A stretch of 64,000 bases of DNA from Spirometra erinaceieuropaei (lineage: Eukaryota; Platyhelminthes; Cestoda; Diphyllobothriidea; Diphyllobothriidae): contig CACRXP010000047.1 in the NCBI GenBank assembly GCA_902702965.1, forward strand, positions 1,840,716 to 1,904,715, given 5' to 3'. This document shows, piece after piece, positions 8,617-59,370 of this stretch (its first letter is position 1; every line of letters starts with the position of its first letter). The notes beneath the pieces are model-generated. The model was not told the origin of the DNA, searched no databases, and was given only the letters and a program-made list of their open reading frames with translations. The position numbers and the translations under genes were made by a program.

Positions 8617-10020
8617 TACAGCAGATGGGCCACCTCATGAAGTGTCATCCAAAATTCGGAAATGCGTTTTTGTTACGAAAAGATTGGTTAAGTAGGGTTG
8701 CAAAACTAATCATCGCGCAACATAAGTCTATAATAATTTAGTTACCTCAGGATGCTGACTTTCGCAAGAACTTTTCGGCTGCATGCAAAAAATGGCTACT
8801 TAAGTAGCGTGCGTTTTTCTCATTGATTTTCAATGCTCTTAAAAATGCAATTATATTTCACGGAAAACATGAATAAAAATATTCATTCTTTCGCTCATTC
8901 GTTAGAAAATTACGTCGTCTCCGAATTTTATACTCGAAGGAAGGGTAAAACTCAGTTCTCAAAAACTTCCAATTCCCGGACAACTTCGAACCTGACCTGC
9001 CGTTACACTTGCATTCCCTGTTTCCAAGCCACAAGCGGTATATTTTCCGCGTACAGAAAACCATACATTCGTTTACGGTATTAAGAGGAGACCATATGGT
9101 GTTTATAAAATTCAGCAGTGAATTTAAGTCATACTGTGAGCTTTACAATCCAAAGAATAGTATAACTAAGAAAGACAAGGGAGACCGGAACGGCCATTTC
9201 TGGCTTATTAGCCGTCGTCAGCCAGTCATACCCATCCCCGAAATGTAGAACACCTGGGGCTCGAACTCGCGGCCTGTTAGTTAGAAGTTCACGCCTTTAA
9301 CCACTGCGCCACGGGCCCGTTGTCCTGTCGGTTTCGATCGACAATATAAAGTAGTAGGAGATGCGTACCGATCGTTCTTTCGTAGCTATGTCTGGCTGAC
9401 GGCGGCTAATAAGCCAGAACTGGCTATTCCAGCCTCCATTGCCTTTTTCGGTTATACCATTTTGCCTATATAATGCGCCGCCGTGCGGGTTCTAGATGGG
9501 CTCGAGAGAGAGCCCATAACGCACAAGGGAACGAGTGAGTTCCGTAGAAACGATCGGTGAGCTTTCCCTACCATCATTTTACAATCCACATTGGTAAACG
9601 CAGAGACATGACGTTTTATGAACGGTCATTTCAGGTTATTAGAATATCTAAAAATCATAAACTTCTTTAAAACCGACTTCTACCCTTCCTCTGGGTATAC
9701 AATTGGGAGAAGGCCTAATTTTCAAGCAAATGAGCAAAATAATGAACATTGATATGTATGTTTTCCATGAAATAAAGTTGAACTTTTAAGGGCATCGAAA
9801 ATCCATTAGGAAAATGCGTTCTTCCCTCGTGGTCGTTTTTACAGACTACGGTTCCTACATGCACCTTGAAAGAAATTCGTTCGAAAGCCGGCATCTTGAG
9901 GAAACTGAATTATTATAGCATTATGCCGCACGATGAGCAGTTTTACAACCTTATTTAATTGATCTTTTCTAAACGCGAAACCCATTTCGGTTGGTATTTC
10001 ATGAGTTGGCCCACTTACTG
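8617..10020. mobile_element. Long-TIR MITE, subfamily A, copy 2, split by a SINE insertion
   Basis: The left end is TA-CAGCAGATGGGCCACCTC at 8617 and the right end is GAGTTGGCCCACTTACTG at 10020. The MITE body is continuous from 8617 to 9152 and resumes at 9578, where the typical centre (TTGGTAAACGCAGAGACATG) continues. The intervening 425 bp is a composite SINE. Removing it restores a normal ~1 kb element, so the MITE is older than the SINE insertion. Confidence 0.85.
9153..9577 (-). mobile_element. tRNA-derived SINE (family A), head-to-head composite with 11-bp target duplication
   Basis: An exact 11-bp direct repeat, TTTACAATCCA, flanks the insert (9142-9152 and 9578-9588), as expected for retroposition. 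On the minus strand, box A-like GTGGCGCAGTGGTTA (reverse complement of about 9298-9312) and box B-like GAGTTCGAGCC (about 9257-9268) form a tRNA-like Pol III promoter. These are followed by the conserved tail GGCTAATAAGCCAGAAATGG. A plus-oriented copy of the tail lies at 9404-9470 without its tRNA part. The last ~105 bp (GGGCTCGAGAGAGAGCCC, then GATCGGTGAGC) is a further family module also seen at 37.8, 52.3 and 59.3 kb. Confidence 0.8.
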
Positions 10021-10022
10021 CA

Positions 10023-10618: not shown

Positions 10619-11609
10619 TACAGAAGGTGGGCTAACTCGTAAAATGTCAACCGAACTTCGTTTTCGTTCCGAAAAGATTAATTAAGTAGGGTTGTAAAAC
10701 TAATCATTGTGCAGCATAATTCTATAACATTTCAGCAACCTCGAAATGTGAGCTTTCGAATTAATTTCTTTCCGGCCGCATGCAAAATCGACACCCTGTA
10801 AAAATGACTACTTATGTAGTACAAATTGTTCTAATTGATTTTTGCTGCCCTTAAAACATTAATTATAGTTCATGGAAAAGATAAATAAAAACATTTACTC
10901 TTCGACTTAGTTGGTAGAAAATAACGTCTCCTTCCAATTTTACACTTGACGAAGGTGTATAATTCGGTTTTAAAAAAGTTTATAATTCTGAGATTTTTTA
11001 ATACTGTGAAATGGCCGTTCATAAAACGTCGTGTCTCATCATTTACCATTCTGACTTGTAAAGTTAACAATATGACTCAAACCCACTGCTAACTTTTATG
11101 AACCCTGTATGGTCTCCTCTTATTACCTTACAGAAATGTATGGTTTTCCGTACGCGCAAATTATACGGTTTGTAGTTTTGAAACCCTGAATGCAAGTGCA
11201 ATGGAAAGTCGGGTTCAAAATTATTCGGAAATTGGAAAGGTTTTTGGAAAGCAAATTATACCCTTCCTTAGAGTAAAACATTGGAAGAAGACGTCACTTT
11301 TTACTGAATGAGCAATAGAATGCATATTTATATGCCTGCTTTCCATAAAATATCGTCGAACCTCTAAGGGCATCGGAAAGAAATGGGAAAAGTGCATGCT
11401 ACTTAAGCAGTAATTTTTTTGCGGAGTGTCGTTTTTGCATGCAGCTTGAAAGGAGTTCATTTGAAGGCTGACATTCCATGGTAACCGAATAATTGTAGAA
11501 TTATTTTTCCCGATGGTTAGTTTTACAACCCTACTGAATCAATTTTTTCGAAAAGAAAACGCATTTCGGAATTTCGGTTGGCATTTCATGAGTTAACCCA
11601 CCCACTGTA
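10619..11609. mobile_element. Long-TIR MITE, subfamily A, copy 3
   Basis: Runs from TA-CAGAAGGTGGGCTAACTC to AGTTAACCCACCCACTG-TA. Both arms contain the GGTATAATTCGGTTTT / reverse complement blocks. The central part has the same orientation as in the copy at 502 (ATGGTTTTCCGTACGC before AAACCCTGAATGCAAG). Confidence 0.87.
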
Positions 11610-11734: not shown

Positions 11735-12125
11735 ATCCGGTTTTGAAATTATTATTGCTGGCCGTCAGTCTGTTACACTCAACCGCAGGTTTGGATAACC
11801 TTGGATTCGGGCTCAAGCCCCTTGAGCACTGGGAGTTTGTATGTCTAAGGAAACCGACCCATTGTCCTATCGATAGTAATCGGGACAATTAATTATGATG
11901 GGGAGAAGTTCACCGACTAATTTGCGGGAGGTTAGTGTCTACGAACACAACCGACAGAACAAAGAGTCAGCGGCACTGAGCTTGTAGACACCCAGTGAGC
12001 AAATAGTTGCGGTTCGAATCCCAGGCCATCTGAACATGGGGCTGAGAGCGGCTGGATATCGACTGCTAAAAAGCCAAAAATGGCTATCAAAATCCCTCTT
12101 GTTCTTGTCGATATCTCGTCCTTCA
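11735..12125. mobile_element. tRNA-derived SINE family A, degenerate head-to-head pair
   Basis: The right unit (plus, about 11950-12125) has the leader ACAACCGACAGAACAA, a perfect box B GGTTCGAATCC at 12011-12021 and the tail block TGCTAAAAAGCCAAAAATGG. The left unit (minus, about 11735-11865) keeps a box B-like GGCTTGAGCC, a decayed tail hairpin and the leader ATAGGACAATGGG in reverse complement. Their 5' ends face each other across about 90 bp. Confidence 0.6.
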
Positions 12126-16602: not shown

Positions 16603-17094
16603 TTCGCTTTCTTCAGCAAAAGAATGAGTGTTTTAGGCATGTTTCCCGTGAAATATAATCGACAGGGCAACGGATTCGTGGCTCACTGGTTAGAGGCGTG
16701 GACTTCTAACAAACTGGTCGCGAGTTTGAACCTCGGGTGTGTCACACTTCGGGGTTGGGTAAGACTGGCTGACAACGGCCAATAAGCCAGAAATGACCAT
16801 CCCAGTTTCACTTGTCTTTGTGGGTAATATCATTCTACATACAATGGAATTTTCAAGGACTTCAAAAATCAACAAAATGTTCCTGCTACTTAAATGGACA
16901 TTTTTGTAGACTATAGGTTTTTCATGCAGCCAGAAAGACGTTCGTTTGAAAGCCAGCATGCTGATATACTCGAATTTTTATAGAATTATGCTATAAAATG
17001 ATTAGTTTTCCAACCCTACTTAATTAATCTTTTCGAAACAGAAAAGCATTTCGGAATTTCGGTTGACATTTCATGGGTTAGCCCACCTACTGTA
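16603..17094. mobile_element. Long-TIR MITE, subfamily A, copy 4 (right half, with SINE insertion)
   Basis: The right arm ends GGGTTAGCCCACCTACTG-TA at 17094. MITE sequence is recognisable from about 16603 (AGCAAAAGAATGAG, CCGTGAAATATAAT). It is interrupted at about 16662-16838 by a plus-strand SINE and resumes with TCAAGGACTTCAAAAATC. The left half is missing. Confidence 0.75.
16664..16838 (+). mobile_element. tRNA-derived SINE family A
   Basis: Box A-like GTGGCTCACTGGTTAGAGG (about 16678-16696), box B-like GAGTTTGAACCTC (about 16732-16744), then GGGGTTGGGTAAGACTGGC and the tail hairpin block CCAATAAGCCAGAAATG, ending in GGTAATATC. It inserted into the MITE copy that surrounds it. Confidence 0.8.
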
Positions 17095-17104
17095 TGCTAA
17101 ATGC

Positions 17105-17700
17105 GATTACCGACAAAGATACGGAAGACTGGATTGTGTATTTCTCGTCAGCCATCCTTACACAACCTCGGGTTAGGGACATCTAAGGTTTGAACTCGCG
17201 TCTTTTCGGCTATTATATATTCGTGAATCTCATGCTCTAACTACTGAGCCCCTGGCTCGTTTCGTATCAATCGCGATCGTGAATATTAAGCAGTTTGGGG
17301 ATGCGTTCACAGGCCAAGTTACGGAACATGCTCGTCAAACTGTGTTTTGATATTCGACCTCTGTCTTCATCGATTTTTTTACCTGCCTTTATTACTACTC
17401 GCTATACAACTGTCTGCGGGGCTTGAGAGCGACCTTAAAATCACCAATGGACGAGCAGGTCCTGTAACCCGATCGGCAACCGAATTTTCAACTTAGATAA
17501 TATTCAAGGTCGCAGTCTAGAGGACAGTGAGCCCTTGGTTCAATTTTTAGAGCCTTGAATTTAAAAACGCTCAGTAGCCGAAAGAACGCAGGTTCGAACC
17601 TCAGATGCTCTCAAACGTGGGGGTGGGTAGGTCTGACTGATGACGGCCAATAGGCTAGAAATGACCATCTCAGTCTCCCTCGCCTTTGCTGGCAATCTGC
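17105..17700. mobile_element. tRNA-derived SINE family A, head-to-head pair
   Basis: The left unit (minus, 17105-17270) has a box B-like GCGAGTTCAAACC and a box A-like GGCTCAGTAGTTAGAGC in reverse complement. The right unit (plus, 17525-17700) has GGTTCGAACC at 17591-17600 and the tail CTGATGACGGCCAATAGGC. Between them, CCAAGTTACGGAACATGCTCG (17.31 kb) and CGAGCAGGTCCTGTAACCC (17.45 kb) are themselves an inverted pair, so the whole 600 bp can fold on itself. Confidence 0.75.
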
Positions 17701-17705
17701 TTCTG

Positions 17706-19774
17706 TAAATATAAAGCTTTTCTTGAATGACACAATATTTCAGCTTGTCTGGCTAGGTACTACAATCAGAGTTTCACTACTTGACGTTTGGTTTGAAAGT
17801 CTTGAGGCTTCATGAATTCAGGAATACCTGTTTCCTTCAGAAAATTACTTTCGCTCAAGTGTATATAAAAATGGAATGTCTCATGTCTACGCCGGGCCAA
17901 ACATATTGTACTAAGAGCTACATGCCTTAAATATGCCATCCTTAGTATAAACAACAAGTAAAATGAAGGAGATAATATAAAAGAACCGAACCATCATAAC
18001 ATGTTTTCTGATATCTTTGAGGATGCCGCGAGTTTTAGAAACTCCCAGCCAAGTTCGGACGCTTTTAGAAAGAGACTTTTAAACTCATCTAATCTGTTTA
18101 TGGATGATGATTCGTTCTCCACTGTAACGAACCATTCCGAGAAATAAAGTGACTAGCAATTTCAGTTTCATTCTCAGAATTTTCCTACGCGTGGAGATAC
18201 TCCAGCAGATGTGAATCAAAATGAACAGAGGAAGGCATAAATTCTCATTATTTCACTCGATATCAAAAAATTAGATCATTGAAATTAACTCAGCAGCAAC
18301 CAATTGTTCAGCTGAATGCCGTTTGGCGGAAAATGAGTCACCAGATTGCGTAGGGACTGCCGTTCAAACCGGAAGGGAATACGGTAAGCAGATAGACCGA
18401 GAGGAGTGTCACCGTGCAGGAGAACAACGACGCCCTAACCAAAGGCGAGTAACTTTCGCCTAGATTTTGACTACTGACGAGGAAATAACGCCCACTGCGA
18501 ACGTGACTATTGGCTTTTGGACGTTCCGGCCGCCTTCACCTTCGATTGAGGTATTAACTGATCGGCTATTTCCAGGTTGCAATGAAGGCAAAAAAAGGAT
18601 TCACAGTACAGCCCAAAAAGCAACAAAATGACCGTTCTCTTTATCGGTATATGAGTGTAAACAGGAGGCCTTTCACAGGCGTACTGGTATTTGTGTGTTC
18701 AAACCTGATAGGCGGTCAGAGTTTCAAATTCTCGTTGTTAACTCGTGAACCTTGAGGAGGAACCAACTGCAATATCTTGTACACTCACGAGTTTAGAGAT
18801 TGCAACGCATAGCGGGCTTTTTCTTGTCAAGCAAAGCCCATCCTAAATAAATGGACTAAGCATAACCTGCACGCCATTCAGTTAAATCTATGAACACATA
18901 CTACTCAGCGCATTGCGATATACCAAGAACCGCAAAGACCACCATCTCGTACGACGGTTGATCATACGCCTAAAAGAGTTAGAAGGTTGAATAATAAAAT
19001 ATATACTCCTCTTCCCCCTCCTCCTCCTCCTCCTCCTCCTCCTCATCTCCCCTCATCCTCCTCCTTCGTAAGTCAGGCATCAGGCGATGACTGGCCCGTC
19101 GTCCCCAAGACCGTTTTCCGTTTCCATATCTGGTTCGCTGGCGTTAGGCAGGAAAATTTTTTACGGCGTCATCCACTAGCAGAAAATTCGGAGGAAACGC
19201 TTAGATCACAGCCCACCGCCAAATACTTGCGTGGGATCGTCCTGAATTCGGCGACGGAGGCGTTCATCTATCCATATGGTACACTAGCCTAATCATCTAG
19301 TCAACTGACGTTAGACATTTTTCCTGTCATAGTAACACATTTGGAGATTGTCATCGAGTAGTGGAGACCTATTTGAGGATCAGTGTCCAGCCTGACCTAT
19401 AACTTCACCTACATTTCGCAATCAGACTTCACTGACTGTTGCTCTACTGTCCAATACCTGTGTACGGCATGGGTGATCCGCAGGTAGGCTACCAAATGGG
19501 CCTCTTTGACTTGGTGCTTACCCTTGACCGGGAGAATAGTGAGCCAGTGGAAGTCGACATGCCTTGTGAGGTCTGAAGCAATTTTTTTCACACAGACGAA
19601 ACACGCGTATATTCGCCTTTGCTTCTGTAAATAATAGTCCTTTATGTCACGGTATCCGCTGCTCTAGCACGTCGTACACAGGCCTCTTTTTTCATCCTTT
19701 CTGTGCCTCAAATCTATTCCACCAAACTGTCAACGGGTGCTCTTCAAAGTTCTGCCTCCGCTGTCTATTGTATC
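17706..19774. other. Unannotated sequence
   Basis: No gene recognised. The only clear feature is the CT-rich microsatellite at about 19 kb; the 101-codon ORF at 18987-19292 starts inside that microsatellite. Confidence 0.4.
19008..19064. repeat. (TCC/CTC)n microsatellite
   Basis: Uninterrupted CTC units followed by imperfect TCC/CAT units. Confidence 0.95.
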
Positions 19775-21373: not shown

Positions 21374-22590
21374 CTTAACTTTACAGTGACTTAGAATCCT
21401 GTTTGTCAGAAAAAGGTGACAGGCGGAATTCGTTCGTAAGGTCGGTTGCGTTTTTCTCAACTCACCGCGTCCTAGAAGCCGCAGGTGCAAACAGAATTCA
21501 TAATTCAGGCGGCGCAAACGAAACAGCTCTAAACGACGCAGGTATTGTTTTTGAACAAAAGAATGTAGTTTTGAGATGAGGCGTACTAACGGCAGTCCAT
21601 TTGATAATTTAGAAAACGACTGCACTGCCTAACGAACCCATGATCATAACCAAGCGGCATTTTATATAAGACAGTGTAACATTCCCCTTTGAACATTCCG
21701 GTTATATTGAAAAGTAGAAATATAATTTAAAGCACAAGGGGGCAGTTTGTTTTTGAAAGAATCCAACACCTCACATCCGAACTTTAGCATTTAGTCATTG
21801 GAGAATTCTAGGAGCTTAAAACCATCAGAAACTGCGATCAGTTTGTTTTTCAACCGAAAAAAACACGCCGTCTTAGTGAGTGCTGGAAAATAACGCATTA
21901 GGGCGCATACAAAAAACGTTTCTTTGAGCATACTGCTCATCGGTTACTAAAGCGAGAGGAACATCCTATTCGGAGTGAAGTTACCTTCTGATTACCACAA
22001 TTTGTCTTTAGCAAGAAAGAATCACATCTGCTTTTGAGTCAAGATGCGCAGAAAAATTGAACTCATGATTTGATTCCACATTTCCTTTTTCGAACATGAA
22101 ACGAGATTTGATGTTTAAGATTCATAAGACCTAGTTCATATTACCCGTCGTAGATTCTAACCAAACAAAGCAAGGGAATGGAATTAAAATTCAGGTGCCA
22201 CGCGAAATGCCTCATAATCCATTTCTGAGAGTTTTAATGGCAAAAAGTGACGTTCTTTGGTTCGTGATTATCAATTCGATTTTAAGAGGCTTAAGTATTC
22301 ACAGTAACTTTGATCCTTCAGATTTATCCCATCAAATTTTCAATTTAAATTTCTCGTTTCGGCTGCAAATTTCAGTGTATTCGTAAAGGAAGGTAATACC
22401 GTACAATTAGCCTTGTTTTTATTTTATGAATATCTATCGTGCTGTTTTTACACACAGATGGAATATTTGCTTTGAGGACAGATGATAACATCGACAGGCT
22501 TAACTACCTACATGATTTTTTAATGGACGAGATACATTCATCGAGCAGGTTACGGAACGTGCTCATTCCGCTGTGTCTTAGTGCTCAATC
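21374..22590. other. Unannotated sequence
   Basis: A 109-codon minus-strand ORF (21296-21625) has no recognised motif. A SINE-family module (GAGCAGGTTACGGAACGTGCTC) occurs at about 22545-22566, just before the LINE1 5' end. Confidence 0.4.
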
Positions 22591-22599
22591 AATTCGAGT

Positions 22600-22968
22600 C
22601 GCTCTCCACTACAACCCGAAGTCGTGGTCCCATAGTGGAGTTCGGCCGTGCCACAACGGCACATGGCAGCCCTATTCAGGGATGACACTGCCAGCCTCCA
22701 CGAGGGGAAGGGCCTAGAAAAGGTGGCGTAGACATTGCTGGGTACCACGCCGTCTCCAGGCTAGCCAGGGCCGCAGACGTCTAAACATGGTCGAAACAAT
22801 CAAAATCGAAACAACAACAATACCAATAACAACAACAACCATACTCATTCTCCTCATCCTACCTCTTCTTCCTCTACCTCCGTCTATTCTTCTGCCTATT
22901 CTTCTCCTTCGTCATCTTCTCCTCCATCTCCTTCCCGTCGCCCCACTCGTCGTCACCAGACTGGCAGG
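22600..22968 (+). promoter_or_regulatory. LINE1 5' UTR / leader
   Basis: Contains two stem-loops (22604-22640 and about 22648-22664), an ATG at 22787 in a different frame that opens a 61-codon ORF ending at the TGA (22970-22972), and a CT-rich stretch. The main coding frame is open from 22765, encoding an Asn- then Ser-rich stretch without any in-frame ATG before 22969. Confidence 0.55.
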
Positions 22969-28300: not shown

Positions 28301-28385
28301 TTGTAGCAAGGAGTGTGTAAGGCTGGCTGACGACTGCCAGTAGGTCAGAAACAGCCATCTCGGCCTTCCTGGCCTTTTTTTGGAA
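28300..28385 (+). repeat. SINE-like 3' tail at the LINE1 3' junction
   Basis: GTAAGGCTGGCTGACGACTGCC, AGTAGGTCAGAAACAGCC and CTCGGCCTTCCTGGCC match the conserved SINE A tail in plus orientation, ending in a T run. No tRNA-like part precedes it, so it is either a truncated SINE or a tail shared with LINE1. Confidence 0.55.
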
Positions 28386-28392
28386 CCAGCTC

Positions 28393-28700
28393 ATGTACAT
28401 AAAGACAGTTCGATCGTGGCTACGGACGTTGTTCCCCGTGTGCCCACTGCAGTGCGGGCGTAGGGACGGTGACTTGCGTCCCATCTATCGCACTCACTCC
28501 TTCCCCGCCTTCCTGGACACTGTGTCAGGACAGTGTCCGGAAGATCGTGGGGTGGGATATGACACAAGGCAGTTCGCGCGGATTGAGCGTGCACCTAGGC
28601 GTACCTCCACCGCGTCATTTGTTATGGGTGCGCAGCCCAATAACACCTGCCGGATCCTGATCTGCCTACACTGTTGGTCCATCGCTACTCCCGTGTAGGA
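28393..28700 (-). mobile_element. LINE1 3'-UTR remnant, tail-to-tail with LINE1
   Basis: Reverse-complement match to the LINE1 3' UTR: GACAGTTCGATCGTGG, GTGTGCCCACTGCAGTGCGG, GGGACGGTGACTTGCG. It carries TTGTTATGGGTGCGCAGCCC, also found in the 16.25 kb remnant but not in LINE1 itself, so it belongs to a sister subfamily. Confidence 0.65.
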
Positions 28701-33084: not shown

Positions 33085-34190
33085 ATGTATATGCCTTTTG
33101 CAGATCCGACAGTTCGTCCGTCGGTTTCGACGATGACCACCGTGTGCCCCACAGCTGCAGCAGCGGTGGGAGCAGGGACGGTGACTTGCGCAGGGGTTTA
33201 TAGTGCCGGTAGACTTGCGCTGCATCTACCTACACTCTCTCCTCCTCCCCCGCCTGGGCCCGGTGTCAAGACAGAGTCAAGAAGACCGGAGACGAGGGAG
33301 ACCGCAGGTGGATGGTTCGGACGGATCCTCACCTTGGCGTTCCACCACACCCCCTGGTCCACACAACAATAACCAGGATTTCAACCATCACAACAGAGAT
33401 TTAGAGGCTGGCACGGCCGAAGCCGCACCTAGGCGTGCCGCCAACGCCTGGCTCGGATCCCACACTGTGGTAGGAATGCCATAAAGGCCACATTAAAAAG
33501 GAGCCATTGCAGCCTGACTCTCAGACCGCCTCCAGTGAAGAAGGAGGTCCAAGGTACCCCGTCAGTTGGCAACCTTCCAAGCCACGGCTTTTAGCGCACC
33601 GTGATAGCTTCAAGCGCGTCAGATTGATTATAGTGAGGAAAATGCGCTGAGTCGTCGACCTCACTCTCCCTTCCCATTCCCACACCCCAGCCACTGTCCG
33701 AGCCGGTCAGTAGACTGGAGTGGGGAATGGGCGCGGTGGCTGACATGGTCGACTGACCATGCCTGCGCGCGCCACAGCACGACCTGGCCCCCCATACACA
33801 CAAACACCAGGATTTCACACAACGGGGGTTGAACGGCGTGTCTCTCACTTGCGTGAGAGTGCCGTGGAAGGTGCTGTTGCAGCCCGTCCTCAGCCCACCA
33901 GTCCGCCACTCCACACAACACACACACACAACATGACGAACTGCGTGAACCGAGAGCGGGCCTCAATCAGCAACCTTCCTATCCACGACACTTGGCGTGT
34001 CGGGATAGTCTCGGACACAAGTCACCCGTGCAGCCGAAGCCGCATGGGGACCGAGTCGAGATGCACACTTCCCACTTGCGTGGGAGGCGGCAGTTGAGTG
34101 CATGAGGTGTGTGAGGGTTGATGTCTGGTGGGGTGATGGTGTTAGGAGGTAGGGGTGAGGGAATGTGTGGTGTGACCGGCGGCTGTCTAC
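33085..34190 (-). mobile_element. LINE1 copy 2 (5'-truncated), 3' UTR
   Basis: Nearly the complete LINE1 3' UTR in reverse complement, with CTCTCAC-TTGC-GTGAGAG at 33842-33859 and TCCCAC-TTGC-GTGGGA at 34070-34085 conserved. Similarity stops near 33090, followed by ATATACATACATG-like sequence on the minus strand, a probable short tail. ORFs reading through it on either strand (for example 33591-33929) are not genes. Confidence 0.85.
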
Positions 34191-34471
34191 CGCTGGTCGT
34201 CGTGGATGCGCATGTGGCCGAATAGACCCATGCGATGCGTGAAGGTGCGAGGGCAGTGTGGGCAGTGGAGGCGAGTGCGGTGGGTGTAGGTTGGTGCTCC
34301 AGGCACTGGTTCGCCAGTCTCTGTGCGATGGATTCGCAAGTGACCCACCAGGCCGATGCGAGAGGTGAAGGTGCGTGGACAATGTGGGCATGAGAGATTG
34401 GCGGTGTCGGTGGCAGCTGTAGAGGAAGCAGTGGTGTTGGTGGTGGCGGATAAGGAATTAAACGCGGCCAT
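34187..34471 (-). pseudogene. LINE1 copy 2, C-terminal zinc-finger fragment
   Basis: A 94-codon minus-strand frame encodes two C2H2 fingers equivalent to fingers 4-5 of LINE1: [21 protein letters not shown], the [13 protein letters not shown] linker, then [21 protein letters not shown], ending HDDQR. Only one finger pair is present before similarity ends near 34475, so this copy is truncated within the finger region. The initial Met is fortuitous. Confidence 0.85.
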
Positions 34472-34475
34472 AATA

Positions 34476-35230
34476 CTCCCTTGCAGGATGACGGTTAGAG
34501 AAGTGTCAGAGTTTCCTTATGGTGCGCTTCAAGGAATTTGAACTGACCAGTGACGGCTACCTAACTAAAGGCAGCTGCTGCAGGAAATGCGGATTTGCAG
34601 CGCACGAACTTGACGCTTTGAGTAAAACAAAATGCCATACGGCAGCGACAGTGGGCGGCGGTCACAAATTAAAATGGACGTATAAATGAGCAATGTTGAG
34701 CAGATGGCGAATTTGTCTTCTTTTACTTTGTTCCGTTGGTCAGACTGGCGGACAAAACCCAGTAACAGCTGTTTAAGCAAAATCCTTGTACTCATTTAAG
34801 ATTCCCATTTTGGGATTTAAGAGAATGCCTAAGCCTCCAGTGTGAACATACTCCTGTCGGAATAAGTAACATGAGAACATTAAACACTATCTATCTTAAG
34901 GAATACCAAATATCAAATAGCTTGAATAAAGCTCGTTTTTACATCTAGTACTGTGGTCTAAATCCTACGTTGTCTGGAAAATACTAGTCGTTTCTTTGAC
35001 TCGATTTAAAAATTAAGATGCTCATATTAGATTTCGGACTGCGTTTAAGAAGGTCTCTTTTGAAAGATTTACTCCAAGTTTCAGCATTAATTTCCTCGGA
35101 GATTAAACAAGGCAAAACAATTACAATGTTGAATTTTTCATCCAAAATTTTACATGTTTAAGAATTAAAGCTCACTGTTTAATGACTCTCCTGTAATTAT
35201 TTTCAGAATGTAAATCTGATGTGCAAAAGC
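34476..35230. other. Unannotated sequence
   Basis: No recognised gene. It may include the untranslated 5' flank of the mariner relic, but I could not locate its terminal repeats. Confidence 0.4.
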
Positions 35231-35239
35231 CTTTTATTA

Positions 35240-35930
35240 CTTATACGAAGGAAGAAAAGTACGTTCACTTTTATGGCATGAGTTCGGACTCGATCATAAT
35301 TGTTTGGAGACAACCGCCAGTGTCTAAAGAGAATAGCGAAAAGGGTCCACATATGGTCAAACAGTATAAAAATAATTTTGAAAACCCTGTAACGACAATG
35401 GGAGCCCTGAAGTTGAATAAGACAGAGGACGGTCATTCACTTTTGAGTATGATGTATTGCAAATACTTCTTGAAGTAAACTCACATCAGCGAGTCAAAGA
35501 AATATCTCGGGCGCTTGATATCAGTATTTCGACGGTGTTCGACCATCTGATGCAATTGGTGAGGTGAAAAATCATGATAAATGGGCCCCCATAGGCTCAC
35601 TAAAAGTCGGAGTCCGGCGTTTTGACGTTTAGTTCACTCGCGGAAACTGAGAACCGCACTAGTAAATTGACGTGGCTCGATTCTGCTGCACGACAATGCA
35701 TGGACGCATTTTAACACTACAAAAACTCACTGAATCGAGATATGAGATTTTCCATATCCTCCACATTTGTTCGACATTTCATCCAATGAATACAATTATT
35801 TTTAAGCAACAAAATTTTCAGAATCAAAATTGAAGTAGAGGTTGAATTTAAAAATGTCTTAGCATCAAGTCATAGATGTTTTACTAACAAGAAGTAAAGG
35901 TCTTTGTTAATCGATGTAAGAGATACTAAG
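35240..35930 (+). pseudogene. Mariner-family transposase relic, near full length
   Basis: Reading through stops and frameshifts gives mariner transposase landmarks in order. N-terminal HTH region: RSLLWHEFGLDHN and LETTAS (about 35258-35315), then GQTV...K..F and DRGRSFTFEYDVLQ (about 35365-35465). Second helix-turn-helix: RVKEISRALDISISTVFDHL (about 35490-35550), then KNHDKWAP. Catalytic domain: ILLHDNA (about 35680, second Asp present), TLQKLTESRYEI, SSNEYNYF (where DYH is usual), and C-terminal FVNRCKRY. The enzyme would cut and paste elements at TA sites. At least eight stops or shifts make it dead. The 85-codon ORF at 35221-35478 lies in a shadow frame. No terminal repeats found. Confidence 0.75.
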
Positions 35931-37374
35931 AGATCCTGACGTTGACTAATTTTGGCATATGTATGTTGTTTTTAATTTTTCAAGAATAAATGTTTGCTTT
36001 TGAAGTTGACCAGTCATTTCTAAACAACCTTATCTATTTAAGCTTGCATAGAAAAATCACTGACACAGATGCGAAAGAAAATTATTAAAAATTTTGAGGC
36101 ATCCTTTTCCTAACAAAACGACGCATCCATAACTTTGTACAATTACCATTTAGGGAAGAAAAAATATCGATTTCGATGTAAACAGAACAGTGGATTTAGT
36201 AATTACTTCTTGCTTGGCAAATCCTGACCTCATCTGCTCATCCAAATGCGATTAATAAAAGAATCGTTAAGAATGATTTCCCGTTTGAATGAGAGTTCTA
36301 CATGTCCTTTAACGTCTTCAACAGGGGCGTGTTGGGTACGCAATCCTGTCAAATTAGAACACCTATCAAACTGAAAGTGGTTGGGTGTAGGTTCAACTGT
36401 CATCACCTATAACGACATAGTCATGCAACTAGTTGAATTCGACATAAACTTACAATTTATTTCCTAAACTTAAATATCGTTATCGAATTGAAGTATTTAT
36501 TCCTTGAGAAAGGTCGAATAGCCAGTGTTTCTTTTTTATGCATTCGGTGTTAAGACTTTTAGTTACCTTTGTTAGTTGCACGTCTAATTTCGCAATTAGT
36601 CAATTTTTACGAAGAGAACTGCCAAGTATTTTGTTTTGCATATTCAACAGGGACAGTTTTGGGTGTTTTCGTACAAAACCTGAATTTAGATAATCCTGTC
36701 ACATGGGGCAGTTTGCTTGGCGCAAAATGTTTCATCCGGGCGCAACTATGAGTTATCATCATGCATAGGGTAATACTGACATTTTAGCAACCAATGCGCT
36801 CGCAACTGTCGATTAGAAGATGTTGGATTTTGAGAGATTATAAGTGCACCCTGCTGCACTTTTTTGGATGTCAAAAAGATATTACGCAGAAAGGTCGTCG
36901 CACTGTTGAAAACGGGTACCCAGAGTGTCAGTGTTGAAAAAAGTATGACGATTAAATTCCGTTTTAAGCTGCTCAGTTTAACTGGTCTTCCTCCAGGCCT
37001 TTACAATGAGACCAAAGCAGATGTTCCTTACTTGAAAGGGAAGGCATTTCTTTCACTCCATTTTTTGAGCCGTCATACAGCGGGAATCATAGTAACGATA
37101 CAGTCTAATGGTCTGTTGGAAAATATTCGAAAGTGTATGCATTAGGAGAAGTGTTTTTACGCTGGGTGTTGTCGATTATGGTAGAAAAGGAAACCTTCGG
37201 GTTGGAGCGTGTACCGCTATCATTTTCTTAAATTGTCTTCCGAAAAACCTCAACTAAATTAGACTGACGTAACTTTTACCTTGGGCTGAACAGCTATCCG
37301 GTCTCTTATTTAAATCATACCTTTGGACACATTAAGTGTGTAGGGCAGTTGTATAAATATAGTGTTATTGATAA
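35931..37374. other. Unannotated sequence
   Basis: ORFs at 36569-36751 and 36864-37145 show no recognised motif. The rest is AT-rich with nothing found. Confidence 0.4.
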
Positions 37375-37890
37375 GGTGATACCGACAAAGACAACGGAAA
37401 CCAGAATGACCATTTTTGTTTTATTAGTCGTCATCAGCCAGTCATACCCAACCCCAAGTGTGGATCACTTGAGATTCGAACCCGGGATCTGTGGTCACGG
37501 AGTTTGACGCTCTACCATGGAGCAACAGAACGAGCATGTTCTGTAACCTGATCGGTGAGCGCTCAGCTGTCATAATTGATATTAACCGATCACAACCGAC
37601 AGGACAACGGGCCCGTGGCTCAATGGTAGAACGTCAAACTCCATGACCAAAGATCCCGGATTGGAACCTCAAGTGATCCACACTTTGGGTTGGGTATGAC
37701 TGGCGGATGACGGCTAATAAGCCAGAAATGGCCATTCCGATCTCCGTTGTCTTTGTTGGTATCACCTTCTCAACATATATCATTAGTCGCTGTGCGACTG
37801 CCTGCGAGGGTTTAAGTATGAGCCCCAAGGCACAACTGAACGAGCATGTTCTTTAACCTGATCGGTGAGCGCCCATCTGCCATAAGTGTT
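37375..37890. mobile_element. tRNA-derived SINE family A, best-preserved head-to-head palindrome
   Basis: The outer ends are inverted repeats GGTGATACCGACAAAGACAA (37375) and TTGTCTTTGTTGGTATCACC (to 37766). The minus unit (37375-37525) has box A TGGTAGAGCG and box B CGGGTTCGAATCTC in reverse complement (37471-37525). The plus unit (37608-37766) has box A TGGCTCAATGGTAGA at about 37617 and a weaker box B GGATTGGAACCTC. The tRNA-like 5' ends face each other across about 85 bp. The module GAGCATGTTCT.TAACCTGATCGG occurs both in the centre (37518) and just to the right of the palindrome (37845). Confidence 0.82.
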
Positions 37891-38425
37891 ATTTTATCGA
37901 TATGGTGCATAGGCTCCTTACTGTTCTATTCCCCCGCCCGGAAAATTAGACTTCGTTTAATTGTACAGGTATAAGAAAGCACATCCTAGTTTAATCAGGC
38001 TTTGCTAATTTCACAATTACAAGATCAATTGCAAAAACTTAATTCTAGCCACTGAGTATTTCAGACTCTAAAGCATTTTTCAGGTTACTGAATAACACCG
38101 ATAAATTAATTTTGATTTCCATTGTATGCCAAAGTGTTTTGAAATAAAAATATCCCTATGCAAAATTTTCAAATAATGATTCTGATTAGGAGGTGCAGTT
38201 TTACAGGAGAAAATTAGGCGGTGCTCACGCGACATTCCTTCAAATCAAATAGACCGCCACATGCTAGATTGTTACTTGCCTATGGACGTATGCGAAAATG
38301 TAAATCGTCATGCGGCCAAATATGGGGTTCGTAATTCAGCGAGCCATCTAACCGATTAAGCAATTGCCAAGAACTGTAAATTCAAAGTTCAGATAAAAAG
38401 ATTACGGCCATGGTAGCCCGATATT
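37891..38425. other. Unannotated sequence
   Basis: AT-rich, nothing recognised. Confidence 0.4.
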
Positions 38426-39539: not shown

Positions 39540-40520
39540 TACAGTAGGTGGGCTAACTCATGAAATATCAACTGAAATTCTGAAAAACGTTTTCGTTTCG
39601 AGAAGACTATTTAGTTAGGGTTGTAAAAGTGGTCATTATGAAGCGTACTTCTACAATAATTGAGGTACCCCAGGATGCCAGCTTTTGAACGAACTTCTTT
39701 TCGGCTACATTTAGAAACTATACTTTGCAGGAAAGGACTACTTAATTAGCACGCATTTTTCTTATAGATTTTCTGTGCTCCTAAAACCTCACTAATATTT
39801 CATAGGAAACATGCATAAAAATATTCTTTCTTTTACCCATTAGGTAGAATATTACGTCAGCGACCAGCCTTATGCTCGAAGAAAGGATATAATTCGGTAT
39901 TCGAAAACATTTTCAATTCCCAAATAATTTTGAACCCGACTCGGCGTTACACTTACATTCAGGGTTTCCAAACTACAAACCGTATATTTTCCGCGTACGG
40001 AACGCTATACATTTCTCTACAGTATTATGAGAAGACTATTTAGGGTTCATAAAATGTAGCAGTGGATTTGAGCCTGATTGTAAACTTTGCAAACGACATT
40101 AGTAAATGTAAAGACACAATGTTTTATGAACGGGCATTTCTTGTTATTAAAAAATTTTAAATATAGAAGCCTTTTAAAACCGAATTATATCCTTTCTTTG
40201 AGACGTAATTTCCTACCGGATGAGCAAAAGAAGAAACATTTTTTTGCATGTGTCCCATGAGATATAATTGAATTTTCAGAGGCATCAAAAATTCATGCGG
40301 AAAATGCGTGCTATTAACGTAGTTATTTTTTACAGGGTGTGGTTTTTGCATGCAGCCGGAACAAAGTTCGTTCGAAAGCCGACATCCTGAGGTAACTAAA
40401 TTATTATAGAATTTTTCTGCATGATGAGTATTTTTACAACCCTACTTAATCAATCTTTTCGAAACGAAAAAGCATCACGGAATTTCGGTTGACATATCAT
40501 GAGCCAGCCCACCTACTGCA
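39540..40520. mobile_element. Long-TIR MITE, subfamily A, copy 6
   Basis: From TA-CAGTAGGTGGGCTAACTC to AGCCCACCTACTG-CA (right TA mutated). Long inverted arms. The centre is in the opposite orientation to the copies at 502 and 10619 (TTACACTTACATTCAGGG before CCGCGTACGG). Confidence 0.87.
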
Positions 40521-41769: not shown

Positions 41770-42532
41770 TGTACTTGTACTTGATACGGCTGCGATCATG
41801 CCTGATCTAGCCGGCCACGATGATGTCCCGAACTGTACCTCTCCTTGCGTGACGATCCGCGGCAGCAGATCTAGACAGCTCAACCTATTCCCATCGCCAA
41901 CGACGGAGACCGAATACCGAAGGTCCAAGAACCACCTCCATGTCTTGACGGACAGTGTCGAGCCAGGTTTTGAACTGACCCCCTCTTCGACGCCTCCAAT
42001 GGGGCAACGGTGCTGGATCGAGGGCAGTAGCACTGAGCTCCTGAGGTGGACGACGAAGAAAATGCCCGAACCACCTCAGTCGTCTCTCTTGGATGGCCTG
42101 AGTTATCCTTGCGATGTCGTCGCAGCGAGCGCGGACTGTCTCATTTGAGACGAAGTCGGTTAACTTCACTCGAAGGATGATCCTCAAGCAGTGGTGGTCA
42201 AACACCTCCAGTTTTCGCTCATCCTCCACGCGCAAAGCCCAGCATTCACAACCGTAGAGAAGGACACACCGGATAGATGCACGGTACACGGCGAATCTCA
42301 GTGGCGATGGAGAGGTCACGTCAGATCCATAGGCATTTCCGAAGGCTTTAGAAAACCCAGCGGGCAGCATCGATTCGGGAGACGATGTCGTCCTTACTCT
42401 ATCCATTAGGCGGCAGCCTCGCACTGAGGTATTTAAAACTGTCCACTTCTTCAAGTTGACAGCCACCAATCCCCAGAGGTGTCTTCTCCTGGTCAGGGAT
42501 GCAGCTGGAGAATACTTTGGTCTTCGCAGCGT
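41770..42532 (-). pseudogene. LINE2 relic: RT thumb and C-terminal region plus 3' end
   Basis: Minus-strand reading: INAAKTKVFSSCIPDQEK and FKYL (42.4-42.5 kb, after a frameshift), RASIRCVLLYGCECWALRVE, LEVFDHHCLRIILRVKLTDF, IQERRLRWFGHFLRR and WRRRRGGQFKTWLDTVRQDM (41.95-42.3 kb). The terminal segment GGCTGCGATCATGCC recurs at 12.72 kb; a short CAAGTA-type repeat (about 41773-41790) marks the 3' tail. No zinc finger follows, unlike LINE1. Confidence 0.82.
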
Positions 42533-43130
42533 TTATGGACAAACCGACTGATTTAGCTCGTTCTCCCGTGACACCATAGACTGCAGATCACCAAAACTTG
42601 ACGCAAGTAAGGCGATATCAACGGCATAGTCCAGATCAGTCAGTCGATGTCCGGATGCAAATTCAACGCCGTCACTGTCGCGTAGGGCCCTCCCGAGGAT
42701 CCAGTCAATAGCGTAGTTGAACGGTATGGGTGACAGGATACAACCCTGTCGGACGCCTGACCGAATACCGAACGGTTGGGAAAGATTGTTACGGACCAGG
42801 ACTCTCGCAGTAGTGGAGCGATAGTAGGCCTTGATCATGGCGATTATTTTTGCCAGTACACCATCTAGCGCCATTATCCGCCACAGGGACTCACGGTGAA
42901 GGGAATCGAACGCGGCGGCAAAGTCAACGAAGCAGACGGCCGTCGGTTGTTGGTAGCTAAGGCGAAATTCGAGAATGCGCCTCAGTGTGAATATCTGATC
43001 TGCGCACCCACGTCCAGCACGAAATCCGGCTTGGTTGGGCCTCGTCCTTGAGTCGCGCACAGCCTGGAATCGCCTGAGTAGGACAATAGCGAAGATCTTC
43101 GCAGAAACGTCGATGAGACTTATGCCGCCT
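42533..43130 (-). pseudogene. LINE2 relic: reverse transcriptase core with mutated catalytic box
   Basis: Continuous minus-strand frame with RT motifs: GGISLIDVSAKIFAIVLLRR, RTRPNQAGFRAGRGCADQI, motif A FVDFAAAFDSLHRESLW, motif B GVRQGCILSPIPFNYAIDW and motif C DLDYAVDIALLAS. YADD is altered to YAVD, so the first catalytic Asp is lost. Upstream of GGISLID the similarity to LINE2 stops (about 43130). No endonuclease is present, consistent with 5' truncation. Confidence 0.85.
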
Positions 43131-43560
43131 ACCAGACTCCGATACGTCCCCCTTGTTGGTCCAGTGCATCCACCACGTGGCCCGTTTGGGAGGCCCAACA
43201 CACACACACACATCGGACACCCCCATCCAGGTTAGCCCGCCAGTCAAGGGCGGCCATCGGGGTGTGGCTGCAGTGGTAAGCACAGCAGCATCCAGCAGAG
43301 ATGAGAGTTGGGTGCTAGGGCGGGACGAGACGAAGTGGGAGTATCCACCCGCTTCAGCGCATTGCTCACAAGTACTTGTTCCGGTCGTGGTCGCGCCTGT
43401 GCCAACAAACCTGGATGGTGGCACGTATTTTGCCTCCTCATGCGTAGCAGTTTCCGGACGGGCGCCCGCAAGAACCTGTAGCTTACGTCTCTACCTTCGT
43501 TTTCCAACAACGGTGCAAAATATTGCGGTTTTGACAATACACAACGTGAAAATTTAAAAT
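43131..43560. repeat. Unassigned GC-richer segment with (CA)n
   Basis: Contains a short CA repeat (43198-43212) and the phrase GTGGCCCGTTTGGGAGGCCC, which resembles GTGGCCCGTTTGGGGGGCCC in the LINE1-type remnant at 16.34 kb. It may be another LINE tail. The 155-codon minus ORF (42957-43424) is a shadow of the RT frame plus this segment. Confidence 0.35.
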
Positions 43561-45172: not shown

Positions 45173-46135
45173 TACAGTGGGTGAGCTAACTTACGAAATC
45201 TCAGCCGAAATTTCGAAATGCGTTCTCGTTTCGGAAAGATTAACTAAGCAGGGTCGCAAAACTAGTCAACCTCAGGATGCCGGCTTTCGATTGAACTTCC
45301 CTCGGGCTGCATGCACAATCTACACCCTACAAAAATGACTACTTTGTTAGCGCCAATTTTCTCGTTGCTTTTCGATGTCCTTAATAGTCTAATTATATTT
45401 CATGGAAAACAAGCATAGAATTATTCACTCTTTTGCTCATTCGGTATAACATTACGTCTTCGTCTAGTTTTATGCTTAAAGAAATGGTATAATTCGGTTT
45501 TCAAAAACATTCTTAATTCCCGATTAATTTTGAACCCTCTCTACCGTTACACTTGGATTCAGGGTTTCCAAACTACATGCCGTATATTTTCCGCGTACGA
45601 AGAACCACACATTTTTATACGGTAATAAAGGCGGACCATATATGGTTCATAATATTTAGCAGTGGATTTGGTTCACGTTGTTAACGTTACGTGCCACAGT
45701 GTTAAATGCAGATACATGACGATTTACGAACGGCCATTTCACGGTATTTAAAAGCCCCACAATTAGAAACTTTTTAAGACCAAATTACGTCCCTTCATTG
45801 AGCATCAATTGTAGCAGAAGACGCAATTTTCTACCGGATGAGCAAAAGAATGAATAATTCTATGCATGTTTTCCCTGAAATATAATTGGACTATTAAGGG
45901 CATCGAAAATCAACGAGAAAATTCATGCTATTAAGCAGTCATTTCTGTAGGGTGTAGTTTGTGCATGCAGCCGGAGGGAAGTTCATTCGAAAGCCAGCAT
46001 CCCGAGGGAACTGAAATATTATAGAATTATGTTGCAGGCTGACTAATTTTACGACCCTACTTAGTTAATCTTTCCGAAACTAGAACGCATTTCTGAATTG
46101 CGGTTGAGATTTCGTGAGTTAGCCCACCCACTGTA
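45173..46135. mobile_element. Long-TIR MITE, subfamily A, copy 7
   Basis: From TA-CAGTGGGTGAGCTAACTT to GAGTTAGCCCACCCACTG-TA. The centre has the same orientation as the 39.5 kb copy. No ORF of note. Confidence 0.88.
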
Positions 46136-48540
46136 CAATTCAGGATGGGAGCAGAAACCAACAACAAACTGCTCTTCTCCGATGTCCTTGTGCGTCGAAG
46201 TGCCAATGGCCAAGTACAAACTACTGCTTTCATAAAAGTCACCCACACAAAACAACTGTTACACTTCAACAGGAATCATCCCCTCTCTTATAAACATGGT
46301 TGTGTCCGCACTGTACCTCAAAGATTTGAAACATACTGCAGCATATTAGCTGAAAAAGAGCTGAACGACAATACCTTCATGAGCGTTTTCGGGCCAGTGG
46401 ATACCTAATTTATTTTGTCGAGCAAAGCAAGCGCCGAGTAAAAAGATGGCGGCCATAAGAAGAGCACCCTGAAGTCTAGAGGGCTACTACTTTCGTTGAA
46501 GCACTCTTCAAGACGGTTTCACTACTATTACAACCCGCCAAATTAGGCATCGCCCCTTGAACCCCAGGCAACAATTCGTCACCGTTTGATGCACCCCAAA
46601 GACACACCGTCGCCCACTGAAACCTCTGTAACTCTCTGTCAGATACACTGTGACGATGGATACTGCAATAACGCTGGAGAAACCATACGGAAATCGTAGA
46701 CCCGCCTACAGGAGCACGAGCTGGCAACTAGGTGACTAGACCCGAGCTCATAGCTTGCGACTCACAACGGAGAAATTGGCCACTGTTTTGACTTCCAAGG
46801 ATCAACCGTCTCAACCAGGGGCACTTCAAGGACAGAAAGTCTTACCCTCCTATTAAAGTGATGACACAACGCAGGGGACCGCCAGTTTTCACAAAAGAAG
46901 AAAAAGTTACTCAGCCAAAGGTCAACTATTTTGGTCGTTTATTTAAAATCCCGGTCAATTTTTCGCATAAGTCGCTTTGATACTGTAGAGCCGGTCAGAC
47001 CCTCCAAAACGTCAGCCACGCAATTCCCCTGAGCGGTAAGCCATTCTCGTTTGTCAGATTATAAGTCCGGATTTCTTACCTTTGCTATCCAAACCGTCAA
47101 TCACAAAGAAAAAGTATTTACGGATTACTAATAGGGAATTGTATTGCATTCTGTCTACTTAGTCTCCTGACGTCTAAAACATAGCGGTTAGCCCACTCGG
47201 AGTTATTTATTTCATTCCACGACGTACCTAGAGCTGTTGATCACATGTTGCTTCTAAAAACGTAAAACCTGAAAGGGGGAGACTTTGGCGACATTGCTGT
47301 CGCAGTTATAAGCATGTAAATGCAATGGCACTACCAGATTCATAAATAAATGCATACTTTAGTCGGAACCATAAGCCTTAAAAGGACTCGAACAGTATTT
47401 AAGCCCTTAAAAATGCCACAAAAAGCTCATTTACCCTAGGATGACCTTTGTAGACTTCCAACCTTAGTTTACGACAATAGACAAAATGCCACATTTGTTG
47501 GGTAATTCTTGGACTTCCCGCGACCACTTTTTATGTGGCAGAGGGCCATTATGCAGACCATCGCACACCAAACAACAAGGCGGTAAAAATAGTAATAATG
47601 GTAGCACAGTTCCTACTGCCATTACTACCGCTACTACTTGCAGTGCCCATATTCCATCGAAGAAATAAAATATTTTCGCCCTTTTAATCGGATTAATAAG
47701 GCAAAAGAAATGCCAAGTACGGTTACGGTCTGGACAACAGTAGACGGCTAACAAGTCCCAAGCGGCCGTTCTTGTTTTCTTTGTCTTTATCTCCTACTTA
47801 CGCTGTGAAACTGTAAGATTTAGAAAACAAAGGGCTTGAAAGGCATTAAGCGAAAACTTGAAATGAGATGTCAAATATAAGGAACAGTTAAGCGGAATTG
47901 TAATATTGAGCCTTACGTGGCATAATCTAAAAACCCTTCGCTCAGGCCAGGATGTCGGTCGTTGGATGCATTTTGTCTGACAAATTTCGATGCTACCATA
48001 AATCAAAGATTCTTTCACGTAAAACAAAAATAAAGTGTTATTCTTTGTACAAATTCCGTAGTAAATCACGTCTTATTCTTATCTTACACTTTCCAAATAG
48101 TGCGTATTGCAGTTTAACAAATTTTGCAGTCGTGAAGAGGGAGACATGATCGTCTGACGTCTCGGATTCCTGCTCGAAACCATCATCAAAGAAAAAAGCA
48201 GATCCGGGTGGTTCGTGAACAAGGGGCTGCAGTATTAATAGGATGCAGTCATTACGCTACTGCATACCTATGAATATTCACGGCTCCCTCTTTCTTCAGG
48301 GATTGTTGCACCTAGTGTGATGACTGTTTGATGCCCGACATTCGCGTCGCTGATTGCTGTAATTCCATCACGTGTTTTGGATGTTGGTGTAATGATATTT
48401 TGAAGACCGTAATTTTTTGCTCAGACAGCATCGTTACATCGGCGTATATCTCCGTAAACTTTTATTAACCCTATATGGAACCTTAGCAACACAGAAAACT
48501 AAATGAATTTCCTTAAGTAGAACTTGTGGGAGTAAAGCTA
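46136..48540. other. Unannotated sequence
   Basis: Holds the right inverted-repeat partner at 46535-46570. ORFs up to 96 codons without motifs. A decayed SINE-tail-like string (GACGGCTAACAAGTCCCAAG, CTTTGTCTTTAT) lies at about 47740-47790. Confidence 0.35.
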
Positions 48541-51800: not shown

Positions 51801-52076
51801 CGGCCTCCCTGTCCGCACTGGATTTCATCATCCTGAAATGACAATCGGATATGGACTGCATGATACTTGAGGCTTTGCATTTGCCTCAGCATACACGGTC
51901 TCTAATTAGAAAATTGCAAAATATGTCCTTATGTGCAACTTGTCGTGGCATACCCTAATCAACACGGAGGAGTACCAGCAAGAGAATGCGTAACAGTCTC
52001 ACTAACGGCAAAAAAAGGCCGCCAGTAATAATTGTAAGAATGCAAACTGCAAAACGATGCTACTGTTGAAAGCGAT
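48866..52076. other. Unannotated sequence
   Basis: More than 3 kb without a recognised repeat or gene. The longest ORFs are about 101 codons (50057-50362, minus) and 91 codons (49484-49759, minus), with no motif. A CA-rich patch lies at about 51531-51552. Confidence 0.35.
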
Positions 52077-52410
52077 GGAGACTGAGATGACTATTTCTGA
52101 CTCGACTAGCCATTTCTGGCCATTTAGCCGTCGTCAGCCAGTTATACCCAACCCCGAAATGTGAAAAATCTGGAGCTCGATCTCGCGACCTGTTAGTTAG
52201 AAGTCCACACCTCTTACCACTGGGCCACGGGCGCGTTGTCCTGTCGATTTCCATCGGAATTATACAATGGTAGAGGAGGCTAACCGATCGTTCTTATGGA
52301 ACTCAGTCGTCATGTTGTGCCTTACGGGCTCTCCCTCGAGCTGAACCAGCAGCCGCACAGCGAGGCATGGTTTAGGTAGAAATGGCCATTTCAGTCTCCC
52401 TGGTCGACAC
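52077..52410 (-). mobile_element. tRNA-derived SINE family A, head-to-head remnant
   Basis: The minus unit (52077-52250) has box A-like GTGGCCCAGTGGTAAGAGG and box B-like GCGAGATCGAGCTCC in reverse complement, leader ATCGACAGGACAACG, and the tail with two AGAAATGGC/AGAAATAG blocks. An isolated plus-oriented tail fragment (AGAAATGGCCATTTCAGTCT) lies at about 52378-52400. The leader module GGCTCTCCCTCGAGC is between them. Confidence 0.72.
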
Positions 52411-58700: not shown

Positions 58701-59134
58701 TCGGACGGCCAGACTCACCGATGCGGTGCACACGCCCTCCCCTCGTTTTCTCGGTCGTGAACTTTTGCCACCGCGATTGCCATGGAGGACTCACCCGTTG
58801 CTCCGGGACGGGACACGCAGCTAGCTACGACCGTTCAGGCATGATAGAGATCAGAAACATGGAAAAAACAACTCTGGAGTATGCACAGTTTCTGTTCGGA
58901 AGTTTCCTTAAAACACGCTTTAAATATTCCAACCATCTCATCTTACTCATCAGTCAGGCCACGCGGGAGGTTTGTGATTCTGACAGCTACTAACATCTCA
59001 CTCATAGTATAGCCCACTGCTTAAGACAATACGATTGCTCGTCCATAAGCGACTGCCAAAAGGTTACGATTTCGGTCTTCACAAACGGATTCCATGACGT
59101 ATTGATGTGTCACGAAATGATATATTCAGAATGT
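55746..59134. other. Unannotated sequence
   Basis: More than 3 kb in which I recognise no gene. ORFs of up to 108 codons (57135-57461) lack motifs. A GC-richer patch at 55.86-56.17 kb may be another worn LINE tail but shows no decisive match. Confidence 0.3.
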
Positions 59135-59370
59135 TATTACCGACAAAATCAAGGGAGACTGAGATGGCCATTTCTGACTAGTTAGCCGCCGTCAGCCAGT
59201 CATACCCAATCCCTAAGTGTGGAACACCTGGAGTTAGATCCTGCGATCCTGTGGGTAGTAAAATTCTGCTCATATCATGTGCCGCTTTGCTATTGCTGGT
59301 TGAGCTCGAGAGAGAGGGCCCGTAAGGCACAACGGGCCCAGTGAGTTTCGTAAGAACGATAATGGATGCG
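59135..59370 (-). mobile_element. tRNA-derived SINE family A, partial
   Basis: The minus-strand tail is well conserved (reverse complement of GGCCATTTCTGAC and GTCAGCCAGTCATACCCAA). The box B region is worn (ATCCTGCGATCC) and box A is lost. To the right lies the family module GAGCTCGAGAGAGAGGGCCCG, AAGGCACAAC, GTTTCGTAAGAACGAT. Confidence 0.65.

Follow-up and report, generated by a model that had tools for sequence, protein, structure and literature searches.

How do two copies of a short tRNA-derived repeat come to face each other, head to head, within what looks like one element? The question arises at 37.4 kb of the window, the single 64-kb stretch of Spirometra erinaceieuropaei DNA to which the whole analysis refers. 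The initial annotation had described the unit at this site as a palindrome of two facing SINEs whose outer 20 bp are inverted repeats. This unit (unit A) comprises the following features, the arms being called by a sequence profile and its leave-one-out version and the hammerhead-like domains by motif columns and a covariance model:

37361..37369, no strand: left target-site duplication (TSD) AGTGTTATT, 9 bp
37370..37528, minus strand: arm 1, tRNA-like 3' part and tail
37395..37447, minus strand: hammerhead-like domain of arm 1
37523..37884, plus strand: arm 2, X 3' part, mid, tRNA-like part and tail, then directly the X and mid of a second monomer
37694..37746, plus strand: hammerhead-like domain of arm 2
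37885..37893, no strand: right TSD AGTGTTATT, 9 bp

The inverted arms are indeed present: the segments 37368-37526 and 37615-37773 are 159 nt long, 87% complementary and separated by a spacer of 88 nt, and the unit read as RNA (37371-37883) folds at -286 kcal/mol (z -20.7), a value equalled by none of 100 shuffles. The insertion as delimited by its TSDs (37370-37884) is nevertheless not a symmetric palindrome: its left end is the 3' tail of the element, and its right end lies ∼110 bp beyond the tail, in the X-mid part of the next unit. Similarly, the outer 20-bp inverted repeats exist, but each is a copy of the 3' tail of the element, not a terminal repeat of the transposon type.

The element family was delineated with a profile of 336 positions, in the order X, mid, tRNA-like part and tail, made from the window's own trimmed pieces. 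This search returned 18 pieces with E below 0.01 at ten loci: six are head-to-head pairs (A at 37.4, B at 9.15, D at 17.1, E at 11.75, F at 52.1 and G at 59.1 kb), and four are single copies in which the second arm is absent (C at 16.66, H at 22.5, J at 28.3 and I at 47.7 kb). The recurrence of the arrangement at 9.15, 11.7, 17.1 and probably 52.1 kb, claimed from inspection, is thus borne out in full and extended by the pair at 59.1 kb. When a locus's own pieces were excluded from the profile (leave-one-out), both arms of all six pairs were still recovered, the weakest being the short arm of unit F (52.37-52.40 kb, ∼31-32 bp; E 2.3e-6 per 701-base stretch). Besides units A and B, the family consists of the following members, all found by both the profile and its leave-one-out version, and arm 1 of unit F by the covariance model as well:

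11748..11918, minus strand: unit E arm 1, decayed
11932..12121, plus strand: unit E arm 2, decayed
16657..16844, plus strand: copy C, single
17087..17371, minus strand: unit D arm 1, X-mid-tRNA-like-tail, hammerhead stem II deleted
17387..17715, plus strand: unit D arm 2, X-mid-tRNA-like-tail
22528..22619, minus strand: copy H, X-mid fragment, single
28310..28401, plus strand: copy J, tail only, single
47743..47790, plus strand: copy I, tail fragment, single
52048..52373, minus strand: unit F arm 1, X-mid-tRNA-like-tail, insertion in hammerhead-like loop II
52373..52404, plus strand: unit F arm 2, short tail piece
59117..59265, minus strand: unit G arm 1, tRNA-like 3' part and tail (pair absent from the initial annotation)
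59270..59360, plus strand: unit G arm 2, X

The units measure 0.2-0.65 kb, with arms from 32 to about 360 bp and a monomer of about 314-336 bp. All six inverted junctions in the window are head-to-head and abutting; the profile search of the window found no tail-to-tail junction of the family, only two head-to-tail junctions (tail then X), within A and B, and no longer tandem array of the element. Exact patterns of the element gave 0 matches in the viral contig and genome contig collections. A published table gives about 35,000-37,000 SINE copies for Spirometra/Sparganum genomes (PMC8166898).

A single TSD encloses the whole pair at A (9 bp) and at B (10-11 bp), the two loci with a readable TSD, so the shared duplication round the whole palindrome that the initial annotation had proposed looking for is present at both. 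The features of unit B are as follows, its arms being supported by profile, leave-one-out profile and covariance model:

9142..9151, no strand: left TSD TTTACAATCC, 10 bp, or 11 bp counting the next A
9152..9381, minus strand: arm 1, mid-tRNA-like-tail, hammerhead-like domain at 9179-9231
9383..9577, plus strand: arm 2, tail-X-mid, hammerhead-like domain at 9386-9438
9578..9587, no strand: right TSD TTTACAATCC, 10-11 bp

Unit B (9152-9577) sits inside a palindromic transposon; two other copies of this transposon, at 40.0 and 45.6 kb, are uninterrupted and thus represent the empty site. Because one TSD surrounds each whole unit, and because B's empty site is preserved in other copies of the transposon, A and B are single insertions. 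Both TSDs were first spotted by eye; among 4000 random 30-mer pairs, a shared word of 9 bp occurred in 0.2% and one of 11 bp in 0.1% (an earlier control used 24-mers, slightly shorter than the stretches compared, and was repeated with 30-mers). No TSD was found at pairs D, E, F and G or at single copies C and J, where the longest shared word, 3-4 bp, is at chance level; this could reflect the age of the inserts, wrongly placed ends or insertion without a TSD.

These data bear directly on one alternative account of the pairs, two independent insertions, the second landing in or beside the 5' end of the first. A family with ten loci in 64 kb is dense enough to invite such an account, but we regard it as very improbable: a single TSD surrounds both halves at A and B, the halves abut with no TSD between them, and all six inverted junctions have the same head-to-head orientation. 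The spacing between halves runs from overlap to 15 bp with the full profile, and up to 48 bp at D with leave-one-out. Since the halves abut and no TSD was seen between them at any pair, a preference for insertion into the element's own 5' end, one of the options originally suggested, is not supported; the accompanying claim that the pairs are not random neighbours holds, given the uniform junctions and the single TSDs.

The arms of unit A are 87% (also 91%) identical, exceeding all 45 between-locus comparisons (mean 65%, maximum 79.5%); the corresponding values for B (77%) and D (60%) lie inside that range. In both arms of unit D (17087-17715) the tRNA-like part contains an 11-nt insert, absent from the other aligned copies, from which it appears that one tail may combine with different tRNA heads.

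Most outer ends lie where the tail finishes on its 3' side (T-end): 7 of 12 arms end at profile positions 320-334 (permutation P 0.002). Trimming has partly fixed these positions, since the pieces that went into the profile were trimmed and came from the window itself, and for two arms the outer end was taken from the TSD. The inner ends are scattered along the profile. The second arms of A and B instead end in mid (M-end), 14 and 15 nt past the same GGTGAGC, so that they coincide within 1 nt (two cases only); the distance from T-end to M-end is about 110-120 nt. For copy C, a 5' end at profile position 118 was considered as a further instance of the M-site and was dropped, because the copy had been trimmed there and leave-one-out moves its end to 133.

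Arm 2 of unit A, at about 360 bp, is longer than the 314-bp period of the element, as would be compatible with an RNA circle or multimer, and arm 2 of unit B crosses the same tail/X junction. A linear monomer cannot template either arm, while a multimer or circle can; judged by the layout of these two arms, the template RNA at A and B is multimeric or circular. The initial reading of the family stands in part, but it missed both this multimeric nature and the hammerhead-like domain in the tail.

Within pairs, the inner ends differ by 92 (A), 163 (B), 28 (D), 26 (E), 69 (F) and 161 nt (G). Together with the asymmetric outer ends of A and B, this inequality at all six pairs does not support the proposal that the element moves as a fixed dimer or foldback unit. 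It also makes it unlikely that a cDNA copied itself: in snap-back self-priming, a single cDNA folds back and copies itself, as has been proposed for the inverted repeats of head-to-head Penelope copies on an antisense template (PMC3846280), and the two arms should then share their start, unless the centres were later deleted. Units D and E come closest to this symmetry, with the two smallest offsets, but over the six pairs we consider the mechanism improbable. A foldback DNA transposon or MITE with tRNA-like sequence inside its inverted arms we hold to be scarcely credible. The long inverted arms are what it would show, and true palindromic transposons do occur in the same window; against it, A and B have tail at one end and mid at the other, so that neither end is an inverted copy of the other, arm lengths vary from 32 to about 360 bp, and single truncated copies exist.

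The palindromic transposons just mentioned have long inverted arms and ends TACAGT..., and are probably Tc1/mariner-type MITEs. They lie at 545-1487, 5262-6260, 8617-10029, 10619-11609, 16890-17097, 39540-40520 and 45173-46135; the arms of the one at 5262-6260 are 379 nt long and 92% complementary.

What, then, is the element itself? The consensus carries an A box (TGGCTCAGTGG) and a B box (GGTTCGAACCT) 55 nt apart, which are degraded in individual copies. ARAGORN at default settings found a tRNA in 0 of 10; relaxed to 80%, it called Gln (ttg) in the consensus and Arg (tct) in the B copy, and at 60% the calls were mostly noise on both strands. The Rfam search of the window (gathering score, and E up to 10) gave no tRNA match. 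The initial annotation expected the divergent promoters to give self-complementary RNA. The two promoters of a pair do face outward, but for that reason both would yield the same sense RNA; a hairpin requires transcription through the whole unit, and only such a read-through transcript would be self-complementary.

A type I hammerhead ribozyme is probably present in the tail, about 33 nt upstream of the usual 3' end. In eight ungapped copies this domain consists of stem I (GACUGG), the core CUGAyGA, stem II (GGCU-AAUA-AGCC), GAAA, a 2-bp stem III with a 4-nt loop, the cut site AUH and finally CCAGUC. Pairing is present in 87 of 96 cells over these copies, a level reached by 1 of 500 shuffles, with slid controls at 46.9% at most; omitted from this count are F (insertion in loop II), the left arm of D (stem II deleted), E (8/12 pairs) and I (9/12). 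The covariation score was reached by 6 of 500 shuffles. Three pairs are compensated (both sides changed), a count that is not unusual, being reached by 75 of 500 shuffles; nor is the number of pair types (352 of 500). The excess conservation of the core columns is marginal (P 0.052), and all eight copies have C-A at the base of stem II.

A strict scan for the hammerhead motif, designed after the motif had been seen, gave two sites, both in the element family, versus 0.05 expected, and the covariance model of the eight copies gave 14 matches at E up to 2, all within the family's loci. Under the Rfam thresholds given above, no hammerhead match was found in the window, and none of the minimum-energy folds of five single tails contained the full hammerhead. 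The hairpin CTGGCT/AGCCAG was rejected as the conserved structure of the tail: it is 89.6% paired, but has zero compensated pairs. The hammerhead-like domain of unit F (52076-52147, minus strand) is enlarged by 19-20 nt precisely within loop II, where a hammerhead tolerates insertion.

To explain these inserts, we propose, with moderate confidence, a non-autonomous, retrozyme-like element with a tRNA promoter, inserted in the manner of Penelope via priming on both target strands. The observations behind this reading are the family itself, its head-to-head arrangement at six of ten loci, the single TSD at two, the junction-crossing arms at A and B and the unequal inner ends. The element would be driven by a Pol III-type promoter of tRNA origin, with its A and B boxes; the type I hammerhead-like domain, which may cleave the transcript, lies downstream, and the RNA would form multimers or circles. 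The enzyme, most probably supplied by a Penelope-like element (PLE), would combine reverse transcriptase and endonuclease; it would cut the two target strands about 9-11 bp apart, and priming would occur on BOTH strands at preferred RNA sites, either the T-end right past the hammerhead or the M-end about 110-120 nt beyond it, in the next monomer. The two cDNAs would halt at variable points and be joined centrally, leaving heads in, tails out and one TSD. More specifically, and only tentatively, the element may be a Pol III-promoted hammerhead retrozyme parasitising Penelope, that is, a PLE-dependent SINE with two preferred start sites and random stops.

The main rival to this proposal is twin priming of the LINE type, in which the first strand is primed at the 3' end and the other target strand then primes the same RNA internally. 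Twin priming also yields head-to-head order, variable inner ends and one TSD, all of which are therefore expected under both readings; the head-to-head look would reduce to the 5' inversion that is common in LINE and SINE inserts, the donor would be a LINE of CR1 or RTE type, and a PLE would be unnecessary. LINEs, moreover, make up about 31% of Spirometra/Sparganum genomes according to the published table, and Penelope about 10% (PMC8166898). But twin priming expects the outer ends of second arms to be scattered, and those of A and B coincide, in the two cases available. There is no poly(A) and no shared LINE tail, the sole readable LINE 3' end in the window being without the element's tail, and a hammerhead and a multimeric template are PLE/retrozyme traits (PMC7229834). 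On balance, we judge LINE-type twin priming unlikely, though a serious contender.

The LINE at 22765-28280 encodes an endonuclease, a reverse transcriptase and C2H2 zinc fingers; its reverse transcriptase ORF (24361-25566) has up to 95% identity to Sparganum proliferum and Spirometra erinaceieuropaei proteins among the best 120 of 4332 matches. An inverted, 5'-truncated copy at 33105-34448 is 86-95% identical to it in parts, and a second reverse transcriptase remnant lies at 41885-43231 (minus strand), with RVT_1 in 42533-43231. Copy J lies in a region (28285-28480) flanked by two LINE 3' ends facing tail-to-tail; that copy J is itself the 3' end of the window's LINE was ruled out, as the inverted LINE copy at 33.1 kb is without it.

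It is instructive to compare the proposed Penelope-style insertion with what has been described for PLEs. Penelope inserts are reported to contain one inverted copy alongside direct copies, usually in head-to-head orientation, with TSDs of 8-10 bp and an optional 3' tail extension (PMC3846280), and an Anolis PLE protein cuts and extends both strands in vitro, starting at two internal sites of an RNA that has a hammerhead close by; mutants of this hammerhead remain able to insert in vitro (PMC11167929). The inserts in the window match the published Penelope pattern in TSD length (9 bp at A, 10-11 bp at B), orientation, two end sites and multimeric template: direct and head-to-head inverted copies in one insert, a probable hammerhead near the proposed start of reverse transcription, and two putative start sites. 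They differ from PLEs in that no reverse transcriptase or endonuclease ORF was found within the element units, and in the spacing of the putative start sites, about 110-120 nt here versus a tail of 30-40 bp in the published PLEs. The window offered no Penelope sequence for comparison in a crude scan with reverse transcriptase motifs, whose one match, within a stop-containing stretch, is not credible; GIY-YIG had no match in the ten longer ORFs scanned.

Metazoan non-LTR retrozymes are described as combining a type I hammerhead with tandem units of about 150-450 bp, no ORF and TSDs of >4 bp, and their authors name PLEs as a strong candidate for retrozyme mobilisation (PMC7229834). The present element is alike in monomer size, the absence of an ORF and TSD length, and its probable type I hammerhead, the 314-bp period of unit A and the tail-X junction at A and B may correspond to the remaining traits. 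In contrast, the tRNA-like promoter, the short head-to-head inserts and the mere two tail-X junctions are features of the present element, and retrozymes seem, according to a review, to have no promoter (PMC7761336). Hammerhead SINE-like elements of flatworms are already known: Sm-alpha and Sj-alpha of schistosomes are alike by description, and Sm-alpha-like elements match tRNA-Gln(TTG), as the relaxed ARAGORN call does for our consensus, but the parts of the source describing them do not mention head-to-head single-event pairs (PMC2770079). Finally, the element shares with tRNA-derived SINEs its A and B boxes, short length and dispersal, and differs from them in the conserved sequence upstream of the tRNA-like head, the multimeric template and the hammerhead-like tail. 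In the open-licence literature searched we found no tapeworm element that combines a tRNA-like promoter, a hammerhead and Penelope-style two-arm inserts, whereas hammerhead SINE-like elements and animal retrozymes are known kinds.

For the annotation of such genomes, these inserts would carry a warning: repeat annotation may split a single insertion into two SINEs. Self-priming was put forward in 2013 as the origin of head-to-head Penelope copies (PMC3846280), and in 2024 both strands were shown to be cut and extended in vitro (PMC11167929). Because the inserts described here are short and numerous, with arms that can be aligned base by base, the priming models can be separated by end counts in one genome. 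If the proposed mechanism is true, a SINE gains a Penelope donor and the retrozyme plan gains a promoter; these small inserts would then record two-strand target priming base by base, and such priming would explain the head-to-head copies of the Penelope type.
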